Positions 40,192 to 46,184 of a stretch of 63,331 nucleotides of DNA are shown piece after piece (position 1 is the first letter of the stretch; the number at the start of each line of letters is the position of its first letter). Under the pieces are notes generated by a model. That model did no database searches and had not been told where the DNA came from. It worked only from the letters and a program-made list of their open reading frames with translations. The DNA lies in NCBI RefSeq assembly GCF_000466425.1, contig NZ_KE992092.1, forward strand, positions 1-63,331. The letters are read 5' to 3'. The translations under genes were made by a program, and so were the position numbers. Source of the DNA: Capnocytophaga sp. oral taxon 863 str. F0517. GTDB lineage: Bacteria > Bacteroidota > Bacteroidia > Flavobacteriales > Flavobacteriaceae.

Positions 40192-41883
40192 TTAGTTAAT
40201 TTCTTCAAAGCCAATATCTTGAATGTTTTTAGGGTTTCTATACCATTCTTCTATCTGTACTTTCATATTAGAGATATTCTTATCTTGAGAAAGCATATCA
40301 TTATACATATTTTTCATTTTTTGTAAAGCTGGAGCAAACTCTTTAATTAATTCTTCGTCGCTTCCCCTGAATTGCTCTACTATATTCTTTTCATAATCAT
40401 TCAAATACGCTATAATATCTTCCCTCGCCTTATCTAACTTCTTAGCATTCTCATGTTGTTTGAAAAGCTCAATAACTTCAATACCTACCCCAACAAAGGC
40501 TAATGCTGATCCAAGATTCTTAGCCAGTTTAACGGCACCCCAAGGTTTAAATTTCATAGAGATTCCAGTAAGAGAACTGATAGTATTCCTACCACTTAAA
40601 ATAAAATCACGCATTTGTGAAACAGGAACTAACCTAAGTCCATTTATTCCATCTTTAACCAAACCATTAATCATTTTATTAGACAAATTTTCTCTAAAGG
40701 CTAATTGATCTGAAATAGTTTTTTCTAAATTGGTTATCTTTACACTATTAAAAGAAGTATATTCAGTATAGATATTCTCAATACCATCATTAAAAAGATT
40801 TCCTTCATTACCTATTTTATTCATAAAGATTTCCCCAAAAGTGCTCGCATCAGCCCCCATGATATCTATTCTAATATCTTTTATATAGTTTAGCAATTCC
40901 GTTTTTAAGTTTTTCAGATTTTTCCTTATTTCTTGGGTTGTCTGTGTAAGTTTATAATCTAATTCTCTTATAGAATTCTGATTATTAACAAGTTCTTTGT
41001 CTATTTGATTAAAAACAGAGTTAATACTATTGAGCTTATTAGTAAGTACATCCGTTATAATACTTTGTTGCTGACCTGTAATAAGAGCTGTTCTATTCCC
41101 TGAAATAATCTTATTGGTAGCCTCTTTAAGTGTATTTATTTTAGATATTTCTTCATAATTCTTATCTTTTAACCAAGTATCTAAGCCTCTTCCATAAGGA
41201 TTTGCAGAAATAGCTACTACTTTCAAGTCTGCTTTTTCTTGAGTAGTAAGTCTTATAAAATTATCTAATTGATTTACCAATGATTCCTTTTTAATTTCAA
41301 GTAGCTCTTTATAATCATCATCGTCTTCTATATCACATACATCATCAAACTTGTTTAATACAAATATTGTGCTACTGAGTTTGTTAAGATCCCTAAAAAG
41401 CCATTTAAAAACTTCCGAATGACTATTCTTTAGTGGATTTACAGAATTAAGAACACAAAGTACTAAATGAGCCTCAGAGATATATTTCTTCGTAATATCC
41501 TCGTATTTAAGTCCATTTTCTTTAGACTTGAAACCAAAAAGCCCTGGAGTATCTACAATCTCACATTTATCCTCTAATCCTTTGGGACGATATATCTCTA
41601 TTGCATCCGAGGATTCCGATTGGTCTATCTTCATATTATCCATAACTCTTTCTAACCAAGCTGCAGCAACTGTCGTTTTCCCTTCTGAAAACCCTCCTAC
41701 GAGTACCACTTTTATCTTTTGTTCCTCAATATTTCTGAGAGCATTCTGTATTTTTTGAATGTCATCTGAAAAATCAAGCCCAAAATTATTTCCCTTTTTT
41801 GCCCATTCTAAAACTTTAAGCAATCCTTGCTTAGATTGCTCCTTCAGAATTTCAAAATTCTTAATAGCGTCTATGTTTTTCAT
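40192..41883 (-). CDS. LeoA-like dynamin-family GTPase
   Basis: The 563-residue protein has G1 VLVGGFSEGKT, a LeoA-like continuation TVAAAWLER, G3 VDTPGLFG and G4 FVLNKFDD. After the GTPase domain there are long coiled coils (about 270-350 and 480-540) and a hydrophobic tip (residues near 445-475, WGAVKLAKNLGSALAFVGVG) that may touch membrane. LeoA from enterotoxigenic E. coli is a dynamin-like protein encoded with LeoB and LeoC. Its start overlaps the end of the larger GTPase gene by 23 bases. Confidence 0.85.
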   Translation of the reverse strand: MKNIDAIKNFEILKEQSKQGLLKVLEWAKKGNNFGLDFSDDIQKIQNALRNIEEQKIKVVLVGGFSEGKTTVAAAWLERVMDNMKIDQSESSDAIEIYRPKGLEDKCEIVDTPGLFGFKSKENGLKYEDITKKYISEAHLVLCVLNSVNPLKNSHSEVFKWLFRDLNKLSSTIFVLNKFDDVCDIEDDDDYKELLEIKKESLVNQLDNFIRLTTQEKADLKVVAISANPYGRGLDTWLKDKNYEEISKINTLKEATNKIISGNRTALITGQQQSIITDVLTNKLNSINSVFNQIDKELVNNQNSIRELDYKLTQTTQEIRKNLKNLKTELLNYIKDIRIDIMGADASTFGEIFMNKIGNEGNLFNDGIENIYTEYTSFNSVKITNLEKTISDQLAFRENLSNKMINGLVKDGINGLRLVPVSQMRDFILSGRNTISSLTGISMKFKPWGAVKLAKNLGSALAFVGVGIEVIELFKQHENAKKLDKAREDIIAYLNDYEKNIVEQFRGSDEELIKEFAPALQKMKNMYNDMLSQDKNISNMKVQIEEWYRNPKNIQDIGFEEIN

Positions 41884-44308
41884 TTTCTAAGTTATTTTTT
41901 TGATCATTTAAAAATTTAATATTTTCATTGAACATATTTTGTAGGTTTCTATAACGCACCACAACCTGCTTATTTTCTTCTATAACAGGCTGTATGATAT
42001 CTTTTTTGATTTGTGCAATAATTTCACCTCTTGAATTACCAATTTCATTTAATATATGTCCTCTTATTTTATCAAGTTCCACACTGATATTATTTTTAAT
42101 TTTAGCTTTTCTACTTTCCTCTCCACCAAATATGTTTACTAAGTACTCTATTACTGCTCCTATGGCCGCTCCTATAGCTGGTCCCCATGGTCCAAAAAAA
42201 GCTCCTACACTCATTCCTATACCAACAAACTTGCCCTTAATTTCTATTTCAGGAATTTCAATCTTTGGCATATAAGATATATTAACACTTCCATTAGCAT
42301 TAGATCTTTGTAAATCATTTATTCTATCACTCAAAAATTCTATTTCTTTATTAATATTATTTTTCTTATATTCTCTCTGTTGTCTAACTTCTTCCTCATA
42401 TAAGTTTATAATCTCTTTTATTCTGCGCTTAATTGTACTTTCACAAAATGATTTAATTCGCTCTCTATCTATTTTAAATTTATCAATATATCTATTGATT
42501 TCCTCTTTGCAATCATTAAAGACTTCCCTTACAATTTGAGCCTCCTTATGTTTTAGTCCATTAGATAAATCTTCAATATTTGAAATTCTTCTATTAGTAG
42601 AAATAACTTGTTGATTGATTTGCTCTATAAGATTATCTGAATAATGTTCATCCCGAATTTTCCTGATTTCTCCTATAAAAAAATCTAAACAAGCAATTAT
42701 TTTATCAATATTTATATTGTATATTTTTCTATCTATATTGCCTAAGCTACTTAAAATCAGATGAGATATCCTTGAAATATTTGATTTTTCAATAAGTGTC
42801 TCCTGCCTCTTAAACACTTCTAAAAATTTATTCCTATTTTTGATATGCTTTTCATTCAGACTATAAGGAATAGTTTTTGAAGCTCCATAAAAAGCAAGTA
42901 GGGCTTGAATAGTTATACTCCCTTTATAAAAATCTCCTAATACTTCTGTCATTTTATAATCTACCTCCCTTGCAAGTTCTGGCTCATAATTTAATTGATC
43001 AGAAGTTTTATTAATATCCTCTGGAGAGTATTTAAAACCCCTTTTATTGATAATACAATATACTTCCGCTTGTTGTTTTAAATACATCTTTATTTTCTCA
43101 ATAGTCCCACTTTCAGGAACTTTTCCAAAAACAACATAAAAAACAGTATGAGAAGGTGAAACTGCATTTATAATCATATCCTTATATTTGCCTTCATCAC
43201 CTTCTATCCCTGGTACATCTATCAGAACAAAATCTCTATTTTTATAAAAGAAATTATAGGCTTTACTGGATTTTGTAAAATCTTGACGACCTGTTCCTAT
43301 AATTTCTCCATCCTTAAACTCCGATAGTTTTTTGAATACTTTAGAGATTTTATTATTCAGTGACTTATACTTTCTATTTATAAAAAACAGAGGTATAAAG
43401 TGTAAGAATTTATTTTTATCCTTATATGATTTTATTTTTAATTCTACTTCTTTTATTCTATCTTCTATTTGTTTTTTACCTACTAATATTTTTTCAAATT
43501 TCTCATATTCTTTTGTTTTATCTTTATCCTTTAATAGAATTCTTAGACTTTCAATAATAGTACTCTTCCCCGCATTGGTCTCTCCAAAGAAAGAGATTGT
43601 ATATTTACTCCATTCATGAATATTTCTTAAGCCTAATATTTTATTTTTCAGTTCATTATTAAGATTATTAATATCTTCTCTTGACTTATTAATCCGCTTA
43701 ATAATATCTTTATGCTTGAAATTAGATTTAGCTAAACTATCACTAAGTTGTCTAATTCTATCATTTAATTCTTTTCCAATATTTGAAGATAAGTTATTAT
43801 ATATTTGTTTATACCCACTCGCGTTATTAGGAATAGAGCTTAATGATTTTGTGTTATCTTTATATACAACTTCTTTCTTCGGAGCCTTCGGAATAGATCG
43901 TCTATATTTTATATAATCTATAAGTTTTTTTATAAGTAACTCTAAAACAATCATCCCTACTAAGCCTATGGCTATATAGATCTTATATTCCCATACCATG
44001 CACCACCACTTGTAAGTATAGGTGTCTTTTTTGAAAGGTAGCGTATGAGTAAAAATTCCATCATATATTGCTGTAAGAACGAAAGAAACAATGGTAAGAA
44101 TCACTAAAAAGTAAGATATAACGGCTTCTGCTTTTATGATGATTGCACATATCACTGAAAACAAAAATACCCAATATCTATTTTTATAGAATAAGAGAGT
44201 AATACTATCAGGCTCATTAGGCCAGGTATAAGTAGCAAAATCAATTACTATAATTAGCAAGAAAATTATTCCAAGAATAGTTCCTATATATTTCAATATA
44301 TCCTTCAT
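41861..44308 (-). CDS. Membrane-anchored dynamin-like GTPase
   Basis: About 815 residues from the ATG at 44308. The longer frame to 44380 would start inside a hairpin, so is less likely. It has four N-terminal membrane helices (to about 135), a coiled coil, a GTPase domain with G1 GETNAGKST, G3 IDVPGIEG and G4 IINKRG, further coiled coils, and a glycine-rich hydrophobic patch (GMSVGAFFGPWGPAIGAAIG) that resembles a membrane-inserting paddle. With the LeoA-like gene it forms a two-dynamin pair. Such pairs remodel membranes; a role against phage has been proposed for bacterial dynamins. Confidence 0.82.
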   Translation of the reverse strand: MKDILKYIGTILGIIFLLIIVIDFATYTWPNEPDSITLLFYKNRYWVFLFSVICAIIIKAEAVISYFLVILTIVSFVLTAIYDGIFTHTLPFKKDTYTYKWWCMVWEYKIYIAIGLVGMIVLELLIKKLIDYIKYRRSIPKAPKKEVVYKDNTKSLSSIPNNASGYKQIYNNLSSNIGKELNDRIRQLSDSLAKSNFKHKDIIKRINKSREDINNLNNELKNKILGLRNIHEWSKYTISFFGETNAGKSTIIESLRILLKDKDKTKEYEKFEKILVGKKQIEDRIKEVELKIKSYKDKNKFLHFIPLFFINRKYKSLNNKISKVFKKLSEFKDGEIIGTGRQDFTKSSKAYNFFYKNRDFVLIDVPGIEGDEGKYKDMIINAVSPSHTVFYVVFGKVPESGTIEKIKMYLKQQAEVYCIINKRGFKYSPEDINKTSDQLNYEPELAREVDYKMTEVLGDFYKGSITIQALLAFYGASKTIPYSLNEKHIKNRNKFLEVFKRQETLIEKSNISRISHLILSSLGNIDRKIYNINIDKIIACLDFFIGEIRKIRDEHYSDNLIEQINQQVISTNRRISNIEDLSNGLKHKEAQIVREVFNDCKEEINRYIDKFKIDRERIKSFCESTIKRRIKEIINLYEEEVRQQREYKKNNINKEIEFLSDRINDLQRSNANGSVNISYMPKIEIPEIEIKGKFVGIGMSVGAFFGPWGPAIGAAIGAVIEYLVNIFGGEESRKAKIKNNISVELDKIRGHILNEIGNSRGEIIAQIKKDIIQPVIEENKQVVVRYRNLQNMFNENIKFLNDQKNNLENEKHRRY

Positions 44309-44349
44309 AAAAAGAGCTTTTCTAAATCTAAACAAGATATTATTTTTTT

Positions 44350-44392
44350 GAATATACACCAATGGTAGATAAATTACCATTGATGTATATTC
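44350..44392. repeat. Long hairpin between small gene and dynamin gene
   Basis: GAATATACACCAATGGTA pairs with TACCATTGATGTATATTC (18 bp, one mismatch, seven-base loop). On the minus strand it is followed by As and not Ts, so it is not a plain terminator there; it may mark an RNA-processing site or adjust expression of the two dynamins relative to the small genes. Confidence 0.7.
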
Positions 44393-44400
44393 TTAATTTT

Positions 44401-44613
44401 CTACTTCATTAGCTTTCCTAATAATCCAAATATAGGAGAAATAATATCAGAAATTTGTTCATCCTTATTTGCTTGCTTAGTACCAGACTGCAAGAATACT
44501 TTATTACTACTCGTAGATGTACTCTGTGTACTAGAGGTTGTTTTACTTGCATTATAAGCCTCATAAGCTTTTGCTGCAACTTTTGCTGCTTTAAAAAGTT
44601 GATCTAAATTCAT
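44401..44613 (-). CDS. Small protein of the dynamin operon
   Basis: The 70-residue protein has an amphipathic helix at the start (LDQLFKAAKVAAKAYEAYNA), a Ser/Thr-rich linker and a short hydrophobic end (ISPIFGLLGKLMK). Not recognised. It is 17 bases after the DUF6140-like gene and before the dynamins in the same direction; a membrane-contact or adaptor role is possible. Confidence 0.6.
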   Translation of the reverse strand: MNLDQLFKAAKVAAKAYEAYNASKTTSSTQSTSTSSNKVFLQSGTKQANKDEQISDIISPIFGLLGKLMK

Positions 44614-44630: not shown

Positions 44631-44852
44631 TTATGCTATTTTCACTACTTTCAGTACCGCTCCCAAAGTATGGTAGATACTGCTGATATTGATTCCATAT
44701 ACACGCTGGAAGGCAGCGATTACGTCTTTTCCGCCGTTTACTGAAACGGGGTTGGTGGTGGTCTGAGTTGGGATCACAACTTGCATCCCTGGTTCTAAAC
44801 GGATACCATTGGAGGCTACCGTCCTACTTACGGTTACTTGATACAGAGGCAT
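44631..44852 (-). CDS. DUF6140-like small protein
   Basis: The 73-residue protein (LYQVTVSRTVASNGIRLEPG, then NPVSVNGGKDVIAAF and YGINI) resembles what I recall as DUF6140, a small Bacteroidota family of unknown role. First gene of the dynamin operon. A -7 box TAATTTTG lies at 44937-44944 on this strand. Confidence 0.65.
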   Translation of the reverse strand: MPLYQVTVSRTVASNGIRLEPGMQVVIPTQTTTNPVSVNGGKDVIAAFQRVYGINISSIYHTLGAVLKVVKIA

Positions 44853-45018
44853 AAATTTAATGGTTAATGGTCAATTGTTAATTCTGCTATTCGTCATTAG
44901 TCGTTAGTCACTTGTCACTAACATTGTTTCTTGGGGCAAAATTACAACCCTACCCAGCCAAACTGTGACCGACATAAAACAAATTTCAAACTTTAACATT
45001 TCGTTGTTGATAGGACAT

Positions 45019-45163
45019 AAAAAAGCGCGGCATTCCTTGTTGCTTGTACACGGAAGCCCGACCAAAGGCCTACACCAAAAGCAAAAGGAATGCCCACGCC
45101 TGAAACGTAGGCATCTCCACTTTACTTTCCCTTGGTGTTGAAAAAATTGGTCGTATTTCCGTG
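45019..45163 (-). ncRNA. Two-state structured RNA element with terminator-like 3' end
   Basis: Read on the minus strand: three 7-bp helices in register (CACGGAA with TTCCGTG, CGACCAA with TTGGTCG, ACACCAA with TTGGTGT) join 45163-45132 to 45078-45049. A second stem of 16 bp plus 3 (AAGCAA and AAGGAATGCC with their complements) joins 45094-45079 to 45045-45029 and is followed by TTTTTT (45024-45019). Both cannot form fully at once, as only three bases would have to span the long helix. A 14-codon frame (45114-45070, MPTFQAWAFLLLLV) overlaps the switch, with its ATG in a third small hairpin. It may be an attenuator, a stand-alone RNA, or a DNA repeat. Confidence 0.7.
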
Positions 45164-45280
45164 CAGGGGAAAATATAAAGCGAAACGCTATTTTAATGAT
45201 TAATGATCAATTGTTAACGATTAATAATCGTTATGATGAGTTGTTATTTCTATATTTTTCTAATTATAATTAGTTAGGGG

Positions 45281-45288
45281 CAAAGATA
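45281..45288 (-). promoter_or_regulatory. -7 box upstream of the structured element
   Basis: TATCTTTG on the minus strand, about 120 bases before the long helix begins. No TTG at the normal distance, so moderate support. Confidence 0.45.
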
Positions 45289-45466
45289 ACGAAAATTTTT
45301 TTAAGCAGAAAGAAAAAATTTATATTTTTTAAGCGGACAAACCGTGTCCATTTTGTTAATTTGTTAATTTACTAATGAATTTGCATTTCTATTGACTGTT
45401 CATTAAAAAATTAATGTTCACTAAAAATGAACATGCAAAATTAGTGAACATTTTTGTTTTATGCAA

Positions 45467-45493
45467 TAAGGGTGAATTGCCATTCACCCCTAC
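45467..45493. repeat. Short palindromic dispersed element (copy 4)
   Basis: TAAGGGTGAATTGCCATTCA then CCCCTAC: a nearly perfect inverted repeat, opposite orientation to copies 1, 3 and 5. It ends four bases before the LOG gene stop. Confidence 0.8.
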
Positions 45494-45497
45494 ATTA

Positions 45498-46184
45498 TTA
45501 AAACTTCGGTCTGAGGCTATACTTGAGGTAGAATTTCTCAATGATGTCTTCCACTTCGTCGGCAGTATCTACAATGCGGAAGATGTCCATGTCTTTGGCG
45601 GAGATGTTGCCAAACTTGTCCAAGAGGACTTCCTTGATCCAGGCTACCAAGCCACTCCAGAACTCGGAACCCACCAAGATAATAGGGAAAGGCTCTATCT
45701 TGGTGGTCTGTATCAGCGTAATGGCTTCGAAAAGTTCGTCCATAGTACCAAAGCCTCCCGGGAAAACAACAAAGGCTTGGGAGTAACGGACAAACATCAC
45801 CTTGCGGGCAAAAAAGTAGTTGAAGTGTAGGTTCTTATCTCTATCCACATAAGGATTGTCGTGTTGTTCAAAGGGAAGTTCTATATTGATTCCTACCGAA
45901 GCCCCCTCACCTTGGGTAGCGCCTTTGTTGGCGGCTTCCATGATCCCTGGGCCTCCGCCGGTGATCACCCCAAAGCCCATGCTGACGATGCGTTCAGCGA
46001 TCTCTGTAGCCAAATTATAATACTTGCTATCGGGCTGGATACGAGCAGAGCCAAAGACAGAGACACAAGGACCTATGGCACTAAGACGTTCGTAGCCGGT
46101 AACAAACTCGCTCATGATCTTGAAAATACCCCAAGAGTCATGCTGCTGTAATTGAAATTCTTCGAATTGTCGTTTTTTTGTCAT
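45498..46184 (-). CDS. LOG family (TIGR00730) Rossmann-fold protein
   Basis: The 228-residue protein has the two signature motifs GGGPGIMEAANKGA and FPGGFGTMDELFE of the LOG/YgdH-type nucleotide-binding family. Members act as cytokinin riboside 5'-monophosphate phosphoribohydrolases or related nucleotide hydrolases; the true substrate in this organism is unknown. The start ATG at 46184 follows a TTAACAATTATAAAAG leader. Confidence 0.88.
   Translation of the reverse strand: MTKKRQFEEFQLQQHDSWGIFKIMSEFVTGYERLSAIGPCVSVFGSARIQPDSKYYNLATEIAERIVSMGFGVITGGGPGIMEAANKGATQGEGASVGINIELPFEQHDNPYVDRDKNLHFNYFFARKVMFVRYSQAFVVFPGGFGTMDELFEAITLIQTTKIEPFPIILVGSEFWSGLVAWIKEVLLDKFGNISAKDMDIFRIVDTADEVEDIIEKFYLKYSLRPKF

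Follow-up and report, generated by a model that had tools for sequence, protein, structure and literature searches.

How can a single short RNA hold two sets of long helices that compete for the same strand, and what would such a choice decide? The question is raised by a locus of Capnocytophaga sp. oral taxon 863 str. F0517, within the 63,331-nucleotide (nt) stretch of contig NZ_KE992092.1 that we analysed in full (the window), where a first-pass annotation had described positions 45019–45163 of the minus strand as a two-state RNA element, with a terminator-like stem opposed to a three-helix state. That description stands, and the minus strand fits the orientation of the element to a promoter motif and to the next gene. 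The element, which spans 45019–45189 (about 170 nt) and is one of four copies in its own genome, is, judging from comparison with its homologues, a real two-state element and one of a widespread class. Sequence comparison and folding models together make it probable that the element is an mRNA 5′ leader acting as a kinetic transcription attenuator, in which the RNA alone, given some input, selects its fold through strand exchange between two loops.

The minus-strand RNA is predicted to fold into one long imperfect hairpin of −60.1 kcal/mol, compared with −42.7 ± 4.1 kcal/mol for dinucleotide shuffles (z = −4.2, 0 of 200), and the same region can alternatively form a stem that ends in six U residues. 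From the 5′ end, segment 1 (45167–45189) begins with a mini-hairpin of 4 base pairs (bp), AGCG-TTT-CGCT (45179–45189), which is left free of the rest in the state that we call ON. In the early or OFF state, segment 1 is the partner of segment 2 (45104–45131), with a 9-bp core of 45167–45175 and 45123–45131. The 5′ strands of three further helices follow segment 1: P1 (45157–45165, within the loop of hairpin 1:2; 9 bp with 45047–45055), P1b (45147–45153, CGACCAA; 7 bp with 45059–45065) and P2 (45129–45138; 10 bp with 45072–45081). In the ON state, segment 2 instead pairs over 12 bp with segment 3 (45104–45115 with 45089–45100). Segment 3 (45085–45100), which has a short U-tract behind it, is the shared strand, forming the antiterminator with segment 2 or the terminator stem with segment 4 (45024–45045; 10 bp, 45029–45038 with 45085–45094, plus 7 bp, 45024–45030 with 45094–45100). 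Between segments 3 and 4 the helix list places the 3′ strands of P2, P1b (UUGGUCG) and P1; there we also read off the sequence a small hairpin absent from that automatic list, P4 (45055–45070, GCC..GGC), whose loop carries the 3′ strand of P1b, UUUGGUCG. A U6 run (45019–45024), also read off the sequence, ends the predicted intrinsic terminator. The loops of both OFF hairpins are thus complementary to each other via P1, P1b and P2, and the ON state is, unusually, a single long rod.

All of the helices named in the first-pass annotation recur in this set, some of them longer than described. Its pairing of 45049–45055 with 45157–45163 belongs to the 9-bp P1 and that of 45072–45078 with 45132–45138 to the 10-bp P2, the 7 bp of P1b being as reported. 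The rival stem, 45029–45045 with 45079–45094, has 16 pairs and one bulged C as read off the sequence (a 10-bp core in the helix list); the extra 7 bp that extend it to the U6 run had gone unmentioned, as had the pairing of the 5′ segment with segment 2 in the nascent transcript, which precedes either described state, and the multi-copy, phylum-wide distribution and gene contexts reported below. The assertion that full coexistence of the two sets is geometrically impossible is correct at the shared strand, where a choice is forced, and overstated elsewhere, where the two sets cross as a pseudoknot.

The other three copies in the same genome are 76–78% identical to that of the window. By blastn, the element was found in 10 of 60 genomes (its own included), all of them Capnocytophaga. 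A pattern scan of named genomes returned 36 stretches, including copies in Avrilella, Paenimyroides, Epilithonimonas and Sphingobacterium and, among bins, in one Chitinophagales, one Prevotellaceae and two Bacteroidales; one stretch, L037 in Azospirillum, was rejected as a chance match, its genome having no model match at all. A covariance model built from 30 copies (R1) matched 15 of 20 Capnocytophaga genomes (48 rows, two of them reverse-strand echoes) and 9 of 395 Bacteroidota genomes, and a second model built from 57 copies (R2) matched 43 of the 395 sampled Bacteroidota genomes, in 26 of 171 genera, and, within the family, 28 of 299 genomes, the window's genome counted in each case; searches of more than 40 genomes ran with stricter filters, so that 43/395 and 28/299 are likely lower bounds. 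Under the same stricter filters R2 matched 0 of 150 Pseudomonadota genomes, a set that held no positive genome. Five of six genomes traced via their loci were matched by the model, the Chitinophagales bin holds four sense copies, and one Capnocytophaga genome (G013) holds eight. Scans that left out the divergent types gave no match in phages (query 45000–45300 of the window), in plasmids at a distant setting (query, the L041 element) or in viral contigs (main-type pattern).

These homologues allow both states to be examined by comparison. The alignment comprises 80 sense copies, that is, 91 rows minus 11 reverse-strand echoes, with L102 left out as it occupies the same place as L108; the element is near-palindromic, and the covariance models weakly match its reverse strand too (11 of 91 rows). 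We used a swap test that is independent of aligned columns, in which the complementarity of the two sides of a helix within a copy is compared with the value obtained when each side comes from a different copy (2000 permutations). In the 80 copies, z was 32.0 for P1, 18.0 for P1b and 31.2 for P2, 14.9 for P0 (the core of 1:2) and 10.2 for P4, and 12.7 for 2:3 (A:B) and 11.9 for 3:4 (B:C), each with 0 of 2000 permutations reaching it; for whole segments it was 16.9 (1:2), 14.1 (2:3) and 18.2 (3:4). In the 39 copies with less than 70% mutual identity, the values were 20.3 (P1), 15.4 (P1b), 21.4 (P2), 11.1 (P0), 7.7 (P4), 10.5 (A:B) and 10.4 (B:C), and 14.2, 12.5 and 15.4 for segments 1:2, 2:3 and 3:4. 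In 21 copies found by R2 only and not used in its training (L119, which has a long insert, left out), P0 scored 7.1, P4 4.2, B:C 7.0, 1:2 10.0 and 3:4 10.2; none of these pairings is modelled in R2, whereas the ON helices are, so that their recovery there is partly selection.

The pairing 1:4 provides an internal negative control: it appears in single-sequence folds and was rejected by the swap tests, with z of 0.9, 0.5 and 1.8 in the 80, 39 and 21 copies. Because 1:2, 2:3 and 3:4 are kept and 1:4 is not, we assign 1:2 with 3:4 as the terminator state and 2:3 as the antiterminator state, which are mutually exclusive via one shared strand and both conserved. P1 and P2 vary between most copies with their complementarity kept, P1b occurs as 25 eight-base strings among the 80 copies, and a run of at least four U residues lies at the 3′ end of 75 of them. 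A search for homologues and compensating changes had been proposed with the first-pass annotation; homologues exist, compensating changes are seen in both states, and neither an absence of covariation nor the lack of one of the two pairings was found.

The order in which the helices can form is equally regular. When growing transcripts of four copies were folded, the 5′ end paired with the strand preceding the A:B hairpin. Once segment 2 is complete, the minimum-energy fold of every one of the 80 copies contains the 1:2 hairpin (median 20 bp); immediately before segment 4 is made, the minimum is the ON fold, again in all 80, which agrees with the order of transcription predicted earlier, with the three-helix state forming ahead of the terminator-like stem. 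We propose that segment 1 would pair with segment 2 once both are transcribed, with segment 3 emerging next. Pairing of segment 4 with segment 3 would then complete a 3:4 stem that, with its U-run, would halt RNA polymerase before the gene (OFF; 1:2 and 3:4). The loop of hairpin 1:2 would bear P1, P1b and P2, the complements of which lie between segments 3 and 4, that of P1b being displayed in the P4 loop. Were the two loops to meet before segment 4 emerges, they could zip together, open 1:2 and free segment 2 to hold segment 3, giving the long rod of P1, P1b, P2 and 2:3 (ON) and hence read-through. The outcome would be a race between loop–loop strand exchange and the polymerase, presumably set by a factor, a ligand or the rate of elongation.

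Such a mechanism would act in cis, and the genomic positions of the copies are consistent with this. Upstream of the window's element we read off the sequence, on the minus strand at 45281–45288, a −7 promoter motif, TATCTTTG, of the TAnnTTTG type that we take to be characteristic of Bacteroidota. Of the 80 copies, 53 have TAnnTTTG in the 150 nt preceding the element, where single-base shuffles predict 8.4 ± 2.6, and the motif is mostly 29–35 or 52–90 nt away. A first open reading frame (ORF) was found for 77 of the 80 copies, the gap from U-run to start codon being 49 nt at the median and 13–20 nt in several; in 65 of 75 cases an ORF of at least 60 amino acids begins no more than 200 nt downstream, as opposed to 19 of 75 at the mirrored position. 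As these positions indicate, the element is a cis 5′ leader. A stand-alone, trans-acting small RNA with an incidental neighbour would likewise be bracketed by a promoter motif and a terminator, and would account for the promoter-like site that precedes the gene in the window copy, L006 and L007. We regard this as quite unlikely, given that the interval from U-run to start codon lacks TAnnTTTG in the other 74 of the 77 loci, that the start codon lies so close behind the U-run, and that a small RNA needs no exact antiterminator for its own terminator. Still less probable is a non-autonomous mobile element, similar to a miniature inverted-repeat transposable element, or a DNA cruciform; several copies per genome and a quasi-palindromic, hairpin-forming sequence that draws weak reverse-strand model matches would suit one, but each copy keeps its own P1 and P2 with compensating changes, the copies strongly favour one orientation relative to the next gene (65/75 versus 19/75), and the retention of 1:2 and 3:4 without 1:4 is unlike a simple palindrome.

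If the element is a transcription attenuator, what input does it read? Its 1:2, 2:3 and 3:4 pairings, its 2:3 antiterminator and the U-run after segment 4 follow the logic of trp-type attenuators, and the window copy has a 14-codon ATG frame, so that ribosome-mediated attenuation through a leader peptide comes to mind. The frame, reported in the first-pass annotation, is present but is no feature of the class: 33 of the 80 copies have an ATG at the aligned position, and the frames that follow range from 4 to at least 32 codons. Some ATG frame of 9–40 codons begins mid-element in 38 of 80 copies, yet the number of short frames upstream does not exceed that in shuffles (27 versus 29.4 ± 4.2) and upstream ATGs are depleted (39 versus 55.1 ± 3.8). 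A leader peptide, sought both inside the element and upstream, was rejected, no conserved peptide being found. Unlike trp-type attenuators, these leaders are not tied to amino-acid genes, and they carry a long stretch with conserved helices of its own between segments 3 and 4 and in loop 1, the two loops pairing with each other. The element works like a four-segment attenuator and does not belong to the ribosome-mediated kind, which we consider hardly credible as an explanation.

The genes behind the leaders bear on a second possibility, a riboswitch in which binding of a small molecule to the P1/P1b/P2/P4 domain selects the terminator or the antiterminator. We scanned 69 of the 77 first genes for protein families, leaving out eight doubtful ones. 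Among the first 25 families listed, those of methyltransferases and restriction–modification were N6_N4_Mtase (5), a type III restriction–modification methylase domain (3), EcoRI methylase (1) and a type I specificity domain (1); the others were TonB plug (2; two SusC by NCBIfam), LRR, collagen-like, BNR and lipocalin-like (3 each), and IIGP GTPase, DUF805, DUF6140 and TPR (1 each). The families listed by PADLOC for first genes were all methyltransferases, each in at most 5 of 69. Riboswitches typically have two states and an intrinsic terminator, and an A between P1 and P1b (95%) and UUUU after P1b (72–89%) are conserved though unpaired in the ON fold. A riboswitch is nevertheless rather improbable: just 14 positions reach 90% weighted identity, several of them inside helices, P1b itself takes many forms, as noted above, and the downstream genes share no metabolism, the commonest Pfam family accounting for 5 of 69.

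Alternatively, the element may respond to a protein or an RNA, as an attenuator or an antitermination element in which a trans factor acting on P4, P1b or the 5′ hairpin decides, as in nut, put, EAR and pT181-type leaders; this is a serious possibility, although we think it doubtful. This reading overlaps with the kinetic attenuator that we favour and differs in that the factor, not timing, is decisive. The sequence ACGACCAA at P1b is found in 36 of 80 copies, including same-genome copies whose P1 and P2 differ, as if it were an address, and the P4 loop UUUGGUCG resembles the YUNR pairing loop. Conversely, other types carry different P1b sequences, and no partner gene or RNA was found in a search confined to opposite-strand promoter motifs, where TAnnTTTG, the one type examined, showed no excess (8 of 80 versus 10.0 expected). 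In pT181/pIP501-type plasmid leaders, loop–loop contacts also choose between leader folds and an intrinsic terminator, but the partner there is an antisense RNA in trans, whereas here both loops belong to one molecule. EAR, JUMPstart-ops and put RNAs are similarly leader elements before varied operons but are not known to have a built-in competing terminator; here terminator and antiterminator are both carried.

Several observations weigh against the kinetic attenuator. First, on the aligned columns of 57 copies, the OFF helices covary more weakly than the ON helices: 87.0% of cells are paired, 16 of 24 pairs have double changes (a count reached by 9 of 500 shuffles) and the score is 0.272 versus 0.201 shuffled, with the OFF columns chosen from the same alignment, as compared with 95.1%, 29 of 32 pairs and 0.645 versus 0.185 for the ON helices. 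The permutation z-values given above, moreover, ignore the remaining relatedness of the copies. Second, according to a folding model without pseudoknots, the full RNA at equilibrium favours ON (2:3 in 73 of 80 copies, 3:4 in 7 of 80), and forcing 3:4 into a nested fold costs 7.5 kcal/mol on average (range 0 to 22; 58 copies). OFF therefore needs kinetics or a factor; by the same model, read-through is likely to be the default at equilibrium, and termination would need early arrival of segment 4 or a factor that separates the loops. Third, the first genes lack a common function. Fourth, the window copy is exceptional in its 166-nt gap, which holds a promoter-like site on the minus strand between U-run and next gene (44937–44962, with TTTG at 44959–44962 and TAATTTTG at 44937–44944), and TAnnTTTG lies in that interval in only 3 of 77 loci (window copy, L006 and L007); control of the window's downstream genes is thus uncertain, and this copy may not control its downstream gene, or not alone. 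Finally, a simple terminator scan of 44850–45350 listed one site (0.4 ± 0.8 in shuffles), which is the 2:3 hairpin with its U-tract on the same strand, not 3:4, and in the main type (45 copies with CGACCA) at least four U residues follow segment 3 in 43 of 45.

This last point raises the possibility that the polarity is reversed, with the main-type 2:3 hairpin and U-tract being a terminator or pause hairpin that 1:2 prevents, and 3:4 a second stop or serving another role. The scan result and the 43 of 45 main-type copies speak for it. The stem 3:4 is unlisted because its loop exceeds the limit of the scan (8), and among the other 35 copies at least four U residues follow segment 3 in 8, compared with 31 at the 3′ end. 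The distal U-run is thus the shared feature, and the main-type 2:3 may additionally pause or stop the polymerase. In the ON fold, furthermore, the U-tract pairs with the A-rich strand preceding segment 2, and a pause there would suit the race rather than oppose it. Overall, we judge a reversed polarity unlikely.

Should the kinetic attenuator operate as proposed, it would offer a natural example of termination decided by strand exchange during transcription, and the Bacteroidota would have a shared means of controlling defence, surface and other accessory genes after initiation. The covariation records both states, and 1:4 serves as an internal negative control, so that the switch lends itself directly to tests by mutation and compensation. 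More speculatively, and with little confidence, we suggest that the class might constitute phylum-wide 'folding clocks', leaders that without peptide or aptamer sense the state or speed of the polymerase through the race between exchange and terminator synthesis, that put unrelated accessory genes under one common input and that use the P4 loop and P1b as an address separating the types. Restriction–modification systems, dynamin-like GTPases, SusC receptors and surface lipoproteins would then share an input such as stress, nucleoside triphosphate level or take-over of the polymerase by a phage.

The class, about 170 nt long and present in the 43 of 395 sampled genomes, is so far unnamed in Rfam 15. 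At gathering thresholds, no Rfam 15 family covers the element, either in the window or at 55 other loci (20, 15 divergent and 20 further); around the scanned loci, the matches comprised DUF805b, which lies downstream, and two tRNAs only. A permissive search of 44850–45500 gave eight matches (lowest E 0.11), none of which came near its cut-off; the best overlap with the element was cold-seep-1 (E 0.4; 19.3 bits versus a cut-off of 125.8), and a tRNA search found no tRNA in the window. Flavo-1 (RF01705) and 6S-Flavo (RF01685) are presented in PMC2864571 as structured RNAs of Bacteroidetes, and Flavo-1 also occurs in 5′ regions, in both orientations, according to PMC9723704; the element differs from these two and from Bacteroidales-1 in having no gathering-threshold match to them. 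No description of such an element was found in the literature searched, supplements apart (including PMC9723704, PMC2864571, PMC11109978, PMC8632094, PMC8040213 and PMC6429828). PMC8040213 reports thousands of candidates, some of them palindromic and Bacteroidetes-derived, such as HMP2_4205 (132 bp, near TPR genes), and a piece of the class may be present unrecognised among them.

In the window, the genes behind the leader lie on the minus strand and begin with a small DUF6140 protein of 73 amino acids (44631–44852; PF19637, 8.4e-21). It is followed by a 70-amino-acid protein matched by no Pfam family (44401–44613), a LeoBC-like dynamin-like GTPase (41861–44380; PADLOC LeoBC, 1.6e-112; Pfam Dynamin_N below cut-off only) and a LeoA-like dynamin-like GTPase (40192–41883; PADLOC LeoA, 9.5e-150; DLP_helical, 7.7e-58). 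At another copy in the same genome (L003, G000:C35), the protein of the next gene begins with a P-loop GTPase motif; this gene is probably the IIGP match among the 69.

Further features appear between leader and gene at individual loci. At L081, a 20-nt exact copy of the P1/P1b 5′ strand of the leader lies across the start codon of a DNA methyltransferase-like gene (type judged from sequence), and L104 is a shorter case. That downstream start regions generally copy the 5′ strands as decoys was rejected (mean score 7.44 for a copy's own region versus 7.30 for other loci); among those of 58 elements with enough downstream sequence, five exceeded the 98th percentile of other loci (L041, L008, L081, L106 and L104), four of them slightly and L081 by far. 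At seven loci outside Capnocytophaga (L100, L103, L111, L121, L125, L129 and L130), a second hairpin with a G-rich loop (such as GGGACUG, GGGGCUG or GGGUUUG) is visible by eye between U-run and ATG; it had no Rfam match in L125 (281 bases, permissive search).

DUF805 motifs were reportedly first described by Weinberg et al. in 2017. DUF805b (RF02914) is, like the element, a cis-regulatory RNA, but is a 35-nt motif of its own that the element does not match. Eight of the 10 Capnocytophaga loci scanned (L005, L009, L010, L014, L018, L024, L027 and L028) carry it between the element's U-run and the start codon, about 8–30 nt past the U-run where measured, placing two regulatory RNAs in tandem; L024 and L028 share an identical element sequence. 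At L027 (G001:C20), the 5′ half of the element is replaced by other sequence and yet DUF805b and a DUF805-like gene follow, which looks like a decayed leader. Lastly, L041 and L054, from the Chitinophagales bin and Avrilella, respectively, closely resemble each other in the sequence just before the element (about 35–40 nt upstream), which suggests joint transfer of leader and upstream sequence between families.
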